Assembly: GCA_024681935.1 (NCBI GenBank)
Contig: JAIKZX010000155.1
Location: forward strand, 1-34,876
Reading direction: 5' to 3'
Length of the DNA stretch: 34,876 nucleotides
From: Fretibacterium sp.
GTDB lineage: Bacteria; Synergistota; Synergistia; Synergistales; Aminobacteriaceae
Part shown: in pieces, positions 6,510 through 9,531 of the stretch
How positions within the stretch are numbered: position 1 is the stretch's first letter
How the letters are laid out: each line of letters starts with the position of its first letter
Notes under the pieces: model-generated
What the model saw: only the letters and a program-made list of their open reading frames with translations
Databases searched by the model: none
What the model was told of the DNA's origin: nothing
Program-made: the position numbers and the translations under genes

Positions 6510-6728
6510 TTATTTCTCCAGGATTACTTTGTACCCGCCCTCGCGCTCCTCTGTTGTGACACGCCAGCCCTTGTTCTCGCCGAAGCGGGAGACGTTATTC
6601 CGGGACGTGGCCGTGTCCACCAGCACCTCGACCCGCCCGGAACTCAGGCCGGAGAGGGCCTTTTTTGTTTCAATCACTGGCTGCGGGCAGGAAAGCCCGG
6701 AAGCATTGACCGTAATCGTATCGCTCAT
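6510..6728 (-). CDS. yedF: TusA/SirA-like sulfurtransferase, YedF type
   Basis: A 72-residue TusA-fold protein with the active-site motif SGLSCPQPVIETKKAL, where the CPxP cysteine carries persulfide or, in selenium-linked relatives, possibly selenium. The rest matches the family: a DTATSRNNVSRF strand-helix turn and a C-terminal EGGYKVILEK strand. The ATG at 6728 has a GGGAGGT site; the frame extends upstream but only into yedE. It lies 13 bases after yedE. This pairing matches the YedE/YedF combination found with selenium metabolism, where YedF often has a further C-terminal domain. This protein is the single TusA domain only, so tusA is an equally fair name. It could handle sulfur rather than selenium. 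Confidence 0.8.
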   Translation of the reverse strand: MSDTITVNASGLSCPQPVIETKKALSGLSSGRVEVLVDTATSRNNVSRFGENKGWRVTTEEREGGYKVILEK

Positions 6729-6741
6729 GACAGGACCTCCC

Positions 6742-7857
6742 TTAACTATTGCTGGGCCGGAAGAGGAACCCGACCGCCAGACAGAATACCAGACCAATGA
6801 CCGTCACATGTGCGCCCATAGGGCCAATGCCCGCCCCGCTGGAGGCAGCGGCGAAGTTATGCGCCACAGCGGCACCCACCAGCATCCCAAGGACGAAGAT
6901 GCCCGCGTCGCTGTCGCCCTCGCCGGCCATGATGAGCTGACGGCCGGGGCAGCCGCCCGCCAGGGTGAAGGCCAGACCGGAAAGGACCATGCCCAGGAAG
7001 TTCCAGAGCTGGTCTGTGTGCGCTACAGGCTGGGGAACGGCCTTGACGCCCTCTGCGGCAGGGGTGATGACGAAGCCGGGGTGGAAGTACCCGAGGGCGT
7101 AATTGGCGGCGAAGGCCACAACGGTGAAGGCCACAATGCCCTTAAACAGGTGGGCGTCGCCCATCATGAAGAGGTCGCGCAGGGCGCCGACAGTGCAGAA
7201 GCGGCTGCGCTGCGCAAGCCATCCAACGATGAGCCCTGCCCCCAGGGCCATAAAGATGGGCGCGTGCTTGGAGCCGGGGCCGGAGGTGGAAAAGAAGATG
7301 GGGGCCTTGCCCGCCTCGCCAAAGGTGGGCGCCAGGAACAGGAAGGCCAAAAGCGCAACGGCGATGAGCGGCATGATGAGGCCCGCCGCCTTGGGATTGT
7401 TCTCGGCCGCGCCGAGGCTGAAGCCGTGCCACAGGAACCCGATGCCGATCAGAACGCCAACGGCCAGTCCCGCGACACCGTAAAGGGCATTCCAGTCACC
7501 GCCCGCTACACGCAGGTAAGCCCGCCAGGGGCAGCCCAGGAAGACCAGCGCGCCCAGCATGGCAAAAATGCCCAGGCCAAAGCGCACCGCAGGGGATGAA
7601 CCGCCGCGGGGTGAGTATTCGCGGAACAGGAGCGCGGAAAGGAAAGAACCCAGGATGAAGCCGGGAATCTCCGGCCGGATATACTGAACAACCCCGGCGC
7701 GGTGAAGCCCCAGGGCCCCCGCGATGTCGCGGGTGAAACAGGCCACGCAGAACCCCATGTTGCCGGGGTTGCCAAAATGAGCCAGCGCAACGGCGATGAG
7801 ACCGATAATCCCGCCGGCAATCCAGGGACCGTGGCGTGAAGTCAAGACCTTATCCAT
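6742..7857 (-). CDS. yedE: YeeE/YedE family membrane transporter (putative selenium or thiosulfate importer)
   Basis: A 371-residue polytopic membrane protein with about nine to ten hydrophobic segments and the twinned motifs of the YeeE/YedE family. The N-terminal part contains GNMGFCVACFTRDIAGAL and VQYIRPEIPG, which I associate with the YedE branch linked to selenium rather than the shorter thiosulfate carriers. Later come a conserved QRSRFCTVGALRD stretch and GGCPGRQLIMAG, in which Cys residues line the transport path in the related thiosulfate channel YeeE/TsuA. A CTGGAGG site precedes the ATG. The yedF-like gene follows by 13 bases. Substrate assignment is by family resemblance and context, not by a visible binding site. 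Confidence 0.82.
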   Translation of the reverse strand: MDKVLTSRHGPWIAGGIIGLIAVALAHFGNPGNMGFCVACFTRDIAGALGLHRAGVVQYIRPEIPGFILGSFLSALLFREYSPRGGSSPAVRFGLGIFAMLGALVFLGCPWRAYLRVAGGDWNALYGVAGLAVGVLIGIGFLWHGFSLGAAENNPKAAGLIMPLIAVALLAFLFLAPTFGEAGKAPIFFSTSGPGSKHAPIFMALGAGLIVGWLAQRSRFCTVGALRDLFMMGDAHLFKGIVAFTVVAFAANYALGYFHPGFVITPAAEGVKAVPQPVAHTDQLWNFLGMVLSGLAFTLAGGCPGRQLIMAGEGDSDAGIFVLGMLVGAAVAHNFAAASSGAGIGPMGAHVTVIGLVFCLAVGFLFRPSNS

Positions 7858-7872
7858 AAAATAACCTCCAGA

Positions 7873-7989
7873 TTATACAATAAAAAACTTACCTCCCTCC
7901 GCTCCGGGGCGGAAGGATGTCACAGAAAGCGCAGAAAAGCCGCACACCCTGGCGGGCGCAGGCAAAAAGCCTGAACTACATCACGTCAT
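7873..7989 (-). CDS. Possible selenocysteine-containing mini-gene or leader peptide before yedE
   Basis: A strong AAGGAGGG site on the minus strand sits 9 bases before ATG (7989), but the frame reads ATG ACG TGA. If the TGA (7981-7983) is read as selenocysteine, the frame stays open for 38 residues, starting M-T-U-C-S-S-G, with a second Cys at 16, and stops at 7873-7875, 15 bases before the yedE ATG. No other start near this ribosome binding site gives more than two codons. It begins 33 bases after the stop of the upstream gene, like an operon member. A recoding hairpin is not convincing: CAGGC/GCCTG lies 12 bases after TGA at the start of its loop, and a 4-bp CCTG/CAGG stem lies 22 bases after. 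It could instead be a two-codon leader or chance. Confidence 0.3.
7882..7916 (-). promoter_or_regulatory. Hairpin with T-run in the yedE leader (possible attenuator)
   Basis: On the minus strand an 8-bp stem (7909-7916 with 7895-7902, one G-U pair) with a 6-base loop is followed, after seven bases, by six T residues (7882-7887), 25 bases before the yedE start. The gap between stem and T-run weakens a terminator call. It could couple yedE expression to translation of the mini-frame upstream. Confidence 0.4.
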
Positions 7990-8022
7990 CCTGTCCACCC
8001 TCCTTTTTTAACCTGTTTCCCG

Positions 8023-9531
8023 CTAATCGTCGCTTGAACGGGGCGCCAGCATCTGTCTGAAAGTCTTGGACGTCTCGCTCGACAGGACACGGTAACCCTT
8101 TTTCTCCTTTGTCATCCACAGGAAGTAGTCCTTGTAGAATGAGTCAGCCATGGCAATCAGGTTCTTCTTCCTGTTCTCCTTTATCTGTTCGTATGGGTTC
8201 TTCAGATGACGGTCCTCATCGCTGTCCCAGCGGTACGCCGCGAGCGCATAGCTGAGAGATTTGCTCGCTCCTCCCGAAGGGAAAACAGGGATAAGCAGGC
8301 TGTTGTCTGACCAGTCGTAAGTTCCCAGCCCCTGACCGGGCACGAAGATGACCCGGGGAATGCCGTACATACGGACGCGCGGCACATTGAACATATCTAT
8401 GTCCATCGCGCTCATGGACTCAAGCTCCGCAGCGGACGCCCTGAAGTCAATGGGGGGGGCATCCGTGGGGCAGAAAGGCGACTCGTCACAGCGCGCATGC
8501 TTGGCAGGGACAGTAAGATATTCCTTCTTTTTAACCAACAGGGAGCGCAGCTCGTGCCACCGCATTTGAGTCGAAAAGTCAGTGCAGGATTCGGCAAGCT
8601 TCTTTGCGCGCCGTTTGATCTTCTTCTCGTCATTCCGGCTGTAGAGGAGCTTCTTGGCCAGGACCTTTGTATTTTCCTGGATATCGATAAAGCGCTCCGC
8701 GTACTCCGGCGGCAGAACCCCATTCTTCTGAGCCGAGGAGATCATGAGGAGTACAGCTTCTTCCGCCTCATAATAAATGACCCGTTCCTGGCGGATCTGA
8801 TGCCGGACGGACTCCTCCGCCTCACGGTATTCCGGCACGCGCGTGAAAACCTTCATCGCCGAGAGCAGGCAGTTGTCCATGTCCCCCGACAGCTTCCGCA
8901 GATCCAGAGGGGTGTCGGGCAGAAATTCCTCCCAAATCTTCTTAAGCAGGGCAGCGCGCTGGTACTGAGCCCTCTCAAGCTGACCCTGGAGGATCATTTC
9001 ACGCTCCGAGGCCTCAGGCCCCGCCAGGGGAACCGGGCCGGGGGTTTCCATGAGCATTGCCCAGGTCTCCGCAATATAATCCGAGAATGAGAGATATGGA
9101 AAGATTCCCCCATCGCTCCGGGAGCTCATGAGCGTACTCATGTCAAGGTCCCTGTAGAAGGGCAGTGTCCAGTCGGCGAGGATGCCAAAATCGATGAAAA
9201 GCCGTTCCGTCTTGTCAAAGGCGAGACTTGTAGGGGAATGGCTCGCCTGAGGATCAATCTGGGCCTCCAGGAGGGCGAAAAGCACATCCCAGTAGCAGCT
9301 TGACATGTCAGACCATATCTTCTTGGCCTGGACGCGGTCATCCGTGTTCTTGGACGTGAGGAGCGGGGCACGTTTTTTTGCCAGCCCCTTAAGCTTGGTG
9401 ACGGCCTTCTGGACCACAGGAACTTCTCTCCAGCGGGGAAAGAGGACCGTCCCCCGGATATCCTGCATTTTATCAATAGTGCTCTGCATCTGGGCGATGC
9501 TGGGAATTTTAACGGGACCAGATTTTGGCAT
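8023..9531 (-). CDS. Conserved-looking 502-residue protein of unknown function
   Basis: I do not recognise this protein. It is soluble (no hydrophobic segment long enough to cross a membrane and no signal peptide), mostly helical and charged. About residues 270-345 form a Lys/Glu/Arg-rich helical region. A more globular patch near 390-430 (RMYGIPRVIFVPGQGLGTYDWSD) looks beta-rich and could be a compact domain with an exposed glycine loop. Near the C-terminus Trp, Tyr and charged residues alternate (YKDYFLWMTKEKKGYRVLSS). The ATG has an AGGAGGT site. It lies 26 bases after the sirtuin stop on the same strand and before yedE, suggesting co-transcription. No catalytic motif was found. Codon use matches the neighbours, so it seems native. 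Confidence 0.75.
   Translation of the reverse strand: MPKSGPVKIPSIAQMQSTIDKMQDIRGTVLFPRWREVPVVQKAVTKLKGLAKKRAPLLTSKNTDDRVQAKKIWSDMSSCYWDVLFALLEAQIDPQASHSPTSLAFDKTERLFIDFGILADWTLPFYRDLDMSTLMSSRSDGGIFPYLSFSDYIAETWAMLMETPGPVPLAGPEASEREMILQGQLERAQYQRAALLKKIWEEFLPDTPLDLRKLSGDMDNCLLSAMKVFTRVPEYREAEESVRHQIRQERVIYYEAEEAVLLMISSAQKNGVLPPEYAERFIDIQENTKVLAKKLLYSRNDEKKIKRRAKKLAESCTDFSTQMRWHELRSLLVKKKEYLTVPAKHARCDESPFCPTDAPPIDFRASAAELESMSAMDIDMFNVPRVRMYGIPRVIFVPGQGLGTYDWSDNSLLIPVFPSGGASKSLSYALAAYRWDSDEDRHLKNPYEQIKENRKKNLIAMADSFYKDYFLWMTKEKKGYRVLSSETSKTFRQMLAPRSSDD

Follow-up and report, generated by a model that had tools for sequence, protein, structure and literature searches.

A candidate selenocysteine-sensing leader ORF upstream of the putative selenium transporter gene yedE

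Introduction

The yedE gene of a Fretibacterium sp. is preceded by a mini-ORF, ATG ACG TGA, which can with good confidence be read as a regulatory leader ORF having a selenocysteine (Sec) UGA as its control codon. The leader probably represents a widespread bacterial sensor: a UGA within a leader ORF, equipped with its own SECIS element, would control selenium transporters through its decoding as Sec. Its targets would be yedE in Synergistota, Desulfovibrionaceae and one Chloroflexi genome and, in Mailhella-like genomes, a PstSCAB-like operon. We could not find this type of sensor described, and it is inferred so far from sequence only. A literature search on Sec leaders, uORFs and attenuation returned nothing relevant, with subscription papers mostly outside the search, and the accessible portions of recent prokaryotic selenium reviews and comparative papers, in which SECIS and YedE are discussed, contain no Sec-sensing bacterial leader peptide (PMC13188914, PMC5322559, PMC9312934). 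If true, the proposal would account for the adjustment of selenium transporters to the supply of Sec, and would extend leader-peptide control to the 21st amino acid, with Sec decoding serving regulation and not protein production. It would also back the proposed involvement of YedE with selenium and single out the PstSCAB-like operon as probably encoding a selenium transporter.

The leader in Fretibacterium sp.

The window, which is the whole 34,876-nt stretch of DNA that was analyzed, was assigned to a Fretibacterium-like member of the Synergistaceae from its closest relatives; all window features given below lie on its minus strand. The yedE gene (6742..7857, with its ATG at 7857) encodes a YedE family putative selenium transporter. 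An earlier sequence-only reading had tied this gene to the selenium branch of the family; it scores 461 bits against TIGR04112 (seleno_YedE), with a cutoff of 200. The gene that comes next after yedE (6510..6728) encodes a small TusA-domain protein (Pfam TusA) resembling the N-terminal part of YedF, with 61.6 bits against TIGR03527, under the cutoff of that model. Upstream of the leader lies a gene (8023-9531) for a 502-residue protein with no match in Pfam or NCBIfam.

The mini-ORF (7981..7989) is preceded by the Shine-Dalgarno (SD) sequence GGAGGG (7998..8003), with an SD duplex of −12.7 kcal/mol. Its ATG occupies 7989-7987 and its TGA, the proposed Sec/stop decision codon, 7983-7981. If the TGA is decoded, the frame encodes 38 residues, M-T-U-CSSGFLPAPARVCGFSALSVTSFRPGAEGGKFFIV, the Sec-extended part (7873..7980) consisting of 35 codons and a TAA (7875-7873) that ends 15 nt before yedE. 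The SD, the mini-ORF, the 38-residue frame and its stop had all been reported in the sequence-only reading, and their coordinates proved exact on direct reading. A SECIS candidate (7940..7958) is located 27-31 nt after the UGA, at a position matching that of the hairpin in the genus-mate L011. Between it and the UGA lies an extra hairpin, CAGGC UUUUU GCCUG (7959..7973), absent in L011. A further leader hairpin, CCUUCCGC-CCCGGA-GCGGAGGG (7895..7916), falls within the extended frame; it may have a regulatory role, and its 5′ arm would be able to base-pair with the region of the mini-ORF SD. The UGA overlaps another start-stop, ATG TAG (7981-7976; TGATGTAG), which is shared by L010 and L011.

The proposal had been made dependent on selB and selC, and both were found in the genome, selB with 351 bits and tRNA-Sec with 75 bits. 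The genome also contains selD (340 bits), with an in-frame TGA at codon 10, and grdA with an in-frame TGA. It is thus a Sec-decoding genome by its selB, selC, selD and selenoprotein genes with an in-frame UGA. In the rumen genus g16, yedE adjoins the tRNA-Sec gene (e.g., G070:C57, G072:C115 and G088:C5), and yedE and selC mostly co-occur genus-wide.

Distribution among relatives

The upstream regions of yedE were gathered from Synergistaceae, other Synergistota, Desulfovibrionaceae and scattered other groups. The leader sequence is nearly all different between genera, yet its design of SD, ATG, UGA and hairpin recurs. The ORF has 1-9 codons in total, a G appears early in the hairpin loop, and the hairpin usually stands 16-31 nt after the UGA. 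The 56 curated leaders come from most Synergistaceae genera, other Synergistota, Desulfovibrionaceae and one Chloroflexi genome; the leader precedes yedE in at least two bacterial phyla, and probably in three. The start and the UGA, whose loss in relatives was to count against the sequence-only reading, are both kept, and ATG-ACN-TGA itself is retained in L010, L011, L014, L015, L113, L117 and L118. Other leaders illustrate the range of sequences (loops in square brackets): L240, ATGTTCCCGGGAGTCACG TGA ... AATGCA[CGGGTC]TGCATT; L189, ATGCCCAAGCGCAAAACC TGA ... GCTTCAC[GTT]GTGGAGC; L159, ATGCTGTACACACGCGAC TGA ... GAACCCAC[GGT]GTGCGGTTC; and the hairpins GATGCGG[GGGAT]CCGTATT of L022, GGATGCGG[GTT]CCGCATTC of L144 and GTGCAC[GTC]GTGCAC of L061, the Chloroflexi locus.

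The leader is absent from many Sec-decoding genomes that carry yedE, was not seen before selD in the 11 genomes examined, and is matched by no Rfam family. The two Rfam SECIS_4 matches, in L120 and L132, are outside the leader, a long way upstream of the uORF. In L120, L132 and L124, yedE is preceded by a gene whose upstream part has SECIS_4 matches or a U-GTCTRCG frame, and which probably encodes a glycine-reductase selenoprotein. In L242 (G007), the sequence before yedE is like that of L138 (G034) up to the mini-ORF SD, and L242 is without the leader, as if it had been deleted, leaving yedE to use the mini-ORF SD.

Specificity for UGA

Could the leader be an accident, in which an intergenic region happens to contain a short ORF and some hairpins unrelated to it? 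The window by itself could be accidental, the direct evidence for its own locus being conservation in L010 and L011 only. A fixed search was defined across loci, requiring an SD duplex ≤ −6, an ATG, at most 12 codons, a stop, and a hairpin ≤ −7 kcal/mol that is placed 15-33 nt after the stop and has G in the first two loop positions. The full motif with a UGA stop was found in 29 of 150 yedE upstream regions versus 9 of 2,016 control segments (Fisher p = 1.5e-27), and with a UAA or UAG stop in 2 of 150 (0 UAA, 2 UAG) versus 13 of 2,016 (p = 0.28), both p values overstating independence, as the sequences are related. By stop codon, the control segments gave 9 UGA, 5 UAA and 8 UAG matches, and shuffles of the 150 yedE regions would be expected to give about 0.7 UGA matches. 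Three of the 29 automatic matches are doubtful: that in L113 is not its real uORF, and those in L035 and L140 are uncertain. Because the genomes are related and the thresholds were chosen after inspection of examples, the UAA and UAG counts in the same regions are the control that we trust most. The stops of SD-ATG mini-ORFs show the same bias, with 48 UGA : 5 UAA : 5 UAG before yedE (n = 58) versus 161 UGA : 71 UAA : 97 UAG in controls (n = 329). These counts support a leader stop that is specifically UGA, with the UAA and UAG versions at background. Such UGA-specific enrichment, along with the hairpin covariation across families described below, makes a chance origin of the leader family extremely improbable.

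Signs of translation before and after the UGA

In the groups with MPKRKT and MFFRNT before the UGA, the pre-UGA differences are all at third positions. A Thr codon stands directly before the UGA in 28 of 54 leaders, with all four Thr codons used, versus 10 of 144 in controls. A leader peptide is recognized by a short leader ORF with a control codon for the pathway product, and the conserved SD-ATG-UGA with synonymous variation corresponds to this. The mini-ORF is thus supported as conserved, and it looks translated.

Past the UGA, 50 of 53 leaders have at least 12 open codons in the Sec frame; the other frames reach this length in 37 and 32 of 53 (69 of 106; Fisher p = 3e-5). A Mann-Whitney test on frame lengths, covering all frames, was not significant (p = 0.12), because the Sec frame tends to close after its open stretch. 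Relative to the yedE start, the stop of the extended frame falls between −34 and +13 in g16 and the window's genus, and about 80-168 nt upstream in Desulfovibrionaceae.

The sequence-only reading had offered a selenocysteine mini-gene or a Sec-sensing leader. As a mini-gene, the frame would encode a small selenoprotein (MTUCSSG...) with a function of its own, yedE following by operon structure, and the frame left open past the UGA in most leaders would indeed give peptides of 20-50 residues. However, L010 has a frameshift against the window beyond the hairpin, and the frame closes 3, 5 and 1 codons past the UGA in L014, L015 and L021, respectively, so the extension is not always needed. No peptide sequence is conserved after the hairpin among relatives, and no match was found in Pfam. 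Conservation of the protein on both sides of Sec, by which selenoproteins are recognized, is thus missing, and a small selenoprotein gene was rejected on the grounds of the unconserved frame, the frameshift and the early stops; we regard this explanation as quite unlikely. The other half of that reading, the Sec-sensing leader, is supported, with selB, tRNA-Sec and selD present and the start and UGA kept.

The SECIS-like hairpin

A bacterial SECIS (bSECIS) has been modeled as a 3-9 nt loop on a 4-16 bp stem, 16-37 nt from the UGA, with G in the first two loop positions and a minimum free energy of ≤ −7.5 (PMC13188914). The window hairpin as folded, CGCCC[GCCA]GGGUG, stands 27 nt after the UGA with about −10.3 kcal/mol and falls within these geometry and energy limits, its loop G being followed by C. 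An alternative fold, CCGCCA[GGG]UG(U)GCGG, stands at 31 nt. The fold energy of the window hairpin is not unusual (z = −1.4); such single-hairpin z-scores were discarded as a test, being uninformative, as even the fdhF stretch of E. coli has a z of −0.85. The hairpin of L011, GGCGCA[GGUUU]UGUGCGGC at 17 nt, is a clear SECIS. The earlier remark that the hairpins downstream of the TGA fit a SECIS poorly is fair for the window alone, whose SECIS is among the less canonical ones of the leader set. Many relatives have a G[G/U] loop, and several are weaker than −7.5.

All 22 Desulfovibrionaceae sequences pair at the four positions of the leader stem that lie outside the inner CAC/GTG. These positions have 28 double changes versus 8.6 in shuffles (22 leaders, a bulged base in eight of them being set aside by hand for the count). 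An independent count on 15 MAFFT-aligned leaders gave 89.5% of cells paired versus 30.5-57.1% when slid. The compensatory changes expected of a bSECIS are thus present in Desulfovibrionaceae; the window's genus has three sequences. The Synergistaceae leader alignment misaligned the hairpins, and no covariance model was built from it. The hairpin geometry of the Desulfovibrionaceae leaders is that of the selD SECIS in the same genomes (GCTCCGGG[GGA]CCTGGAGC at about 20 nt); the selD SECIS of Synergistaceae, AGGTCC[GGC]GGACCT at 17 nt, shares this geometry. The leaders resemble the SECIS of E. coli fdhF in having a UGA and then a hairpin 16-37 nt on with a G early in the apical loop, and the SelB and tRNA-Sec that fdhF requires are likewise proposed for the yedE leader. 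They differ in that the UGA sits in an ORF of 1-9 codons and not in a conserved selenoprotein.

Two other readings accept parts of this design. In the first, yedE is repressed or tuned by a SECIS element of the 5′ UTR to which SelB binds, with the mini-ORF being incidental or merely positioning ribosomes. The conserved SECIS geometry is in keeping with it, and there is a precedent: Thanbichler and Boeck, in 2002, reportedly described a SECIS-like element in the 5′ UTR of E. coli selAB, thought to control expression (cited in PMC8124441). That element and the yedE leader share a SECIS-like RNA upstream of a selenium gene, but the yedE leader keeps its SD, start codon and in-frame UGA, so decoding itself is implicated. 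The UGA spacing, the Thr before the UGA and the synonymous variation are kept as well, all needless for a ribosome-free element, and this explanation is considered unlikely.

In the second, a minimal leader ORF ended by UGA would sense a signal other than Sec, such as the activity of RF2 or a ribosome stalled on a short peptide. The in-frame UGA of prfB serves RF2 autoregulation, so a UGA can sense RF2, and the leader ORFs are very short, reduced to ATG TGA in five loci. In both prfB and the yedE leader, competition in UGA decoding would be the sensor; prfB relies on frameshifting within a gene, whereas in the yedE case the UGA and a SECIS belong to a leader that precedes a transporter gene. 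Sensing of a non-Sec signal would leave unexplained the covarying SECIS-like hairpin at SECIS spacing and the link to selenium genes, and is very improbable.

Proposed mechanism

How would a Sec-decoding leader act on yedE? Ribosomes would load at the strong SD, add two residues, or 1-9 among the curated relatives, and reach the UGA and the SECIS-like hairpin. With Sec-tRNA and SelB present, Sec would be inserted and the ribosome would continue through the SECIS and the leader, in the Fretibacterium sp. genome as far as the stop just before yedE (15 nt). With Sec-tRNA or SelB lacking, RF2 would terminate at the UGA and the leader RNA would be free to fold. The distance that the ribosome travels into the leader would then set yedE expression. 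We infer from the leaders that Sec is actually inserted at the UGA and that its decoding affects yedE, in one direction or the other.

The leader RNAs offer some targets for such a ribosome. Long-range pairing of the post-SECIS segment with the pre-yedE segment was above shuffles in 44 related leaders (combined p = 6e-6), and a run-through ribosome would therefore open that pairing. No general intrinsic terminator was found in the leaders, a hairpin with a T-run being barely over shuffles (p = 0.046), and no shared sequestration of the yedE SD was found, a ribosome halted at the UGA versus run-through giving no consistent change. Neither structure thus indicates the sign of regulation. Some leaders have terminator-like hairpins and long-range stems, which are not general. 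The proposed leader resembles trpL type attenuators in that decoding of a control codon in a short leader ORF would set the ribosome position in a foldable leader, and differs in that the control codon is UGA/Sec and no general terminator-antiterminator pair was found.

The role of the gene leaves the expected sign unfixed too, since one comparative paper also considers YedE a possible exporter (PMC5322559). In the archaeon Methanococcus maripaludis, yedE mRNA is up under selenium starvation (PMC11097638), and by this analogy we lean slightly toward yedE expression being high when selenium is short.

Pairing of the mini-ORF SD with the leader was suggestive among near relatives, with a combined p of 0.001, and not significant for the window by itself (p = 0.32). 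The SD can pair behind the SECIS in L132, L120, L011 and L138, e.g., GGGAGTAAA with TTTACTCCC in L132, and this pairing may possibly control translation of the leader itself.

A PstSCAB-like operon with the leader

A covariance model built from the Desulfovibrionaceae leaders gave strong matches in about 20 genomes, and those checked against yedE coordinates sit immediately before yedE. About seven Mailhella-like genomes gave weaker matches (E 4e-5 to 6e-3), located ahead of an operon of PstS-, PstC-, PstA- and PstB-like genes. Here the leader consists of ATG TTT TTC AGG AAC ACC TGA and a SECIS-like hairpin, which makes the PstSCAB-like ABC transporter a candidate selenium-oxyanion transporter. 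Two further weak matches, L275 and L280, resembled coding sequence. The leaders of the PstSCAB-like operon are L272-L274 and L276-L279, and the operon itself can be seen in L283:376-3785.
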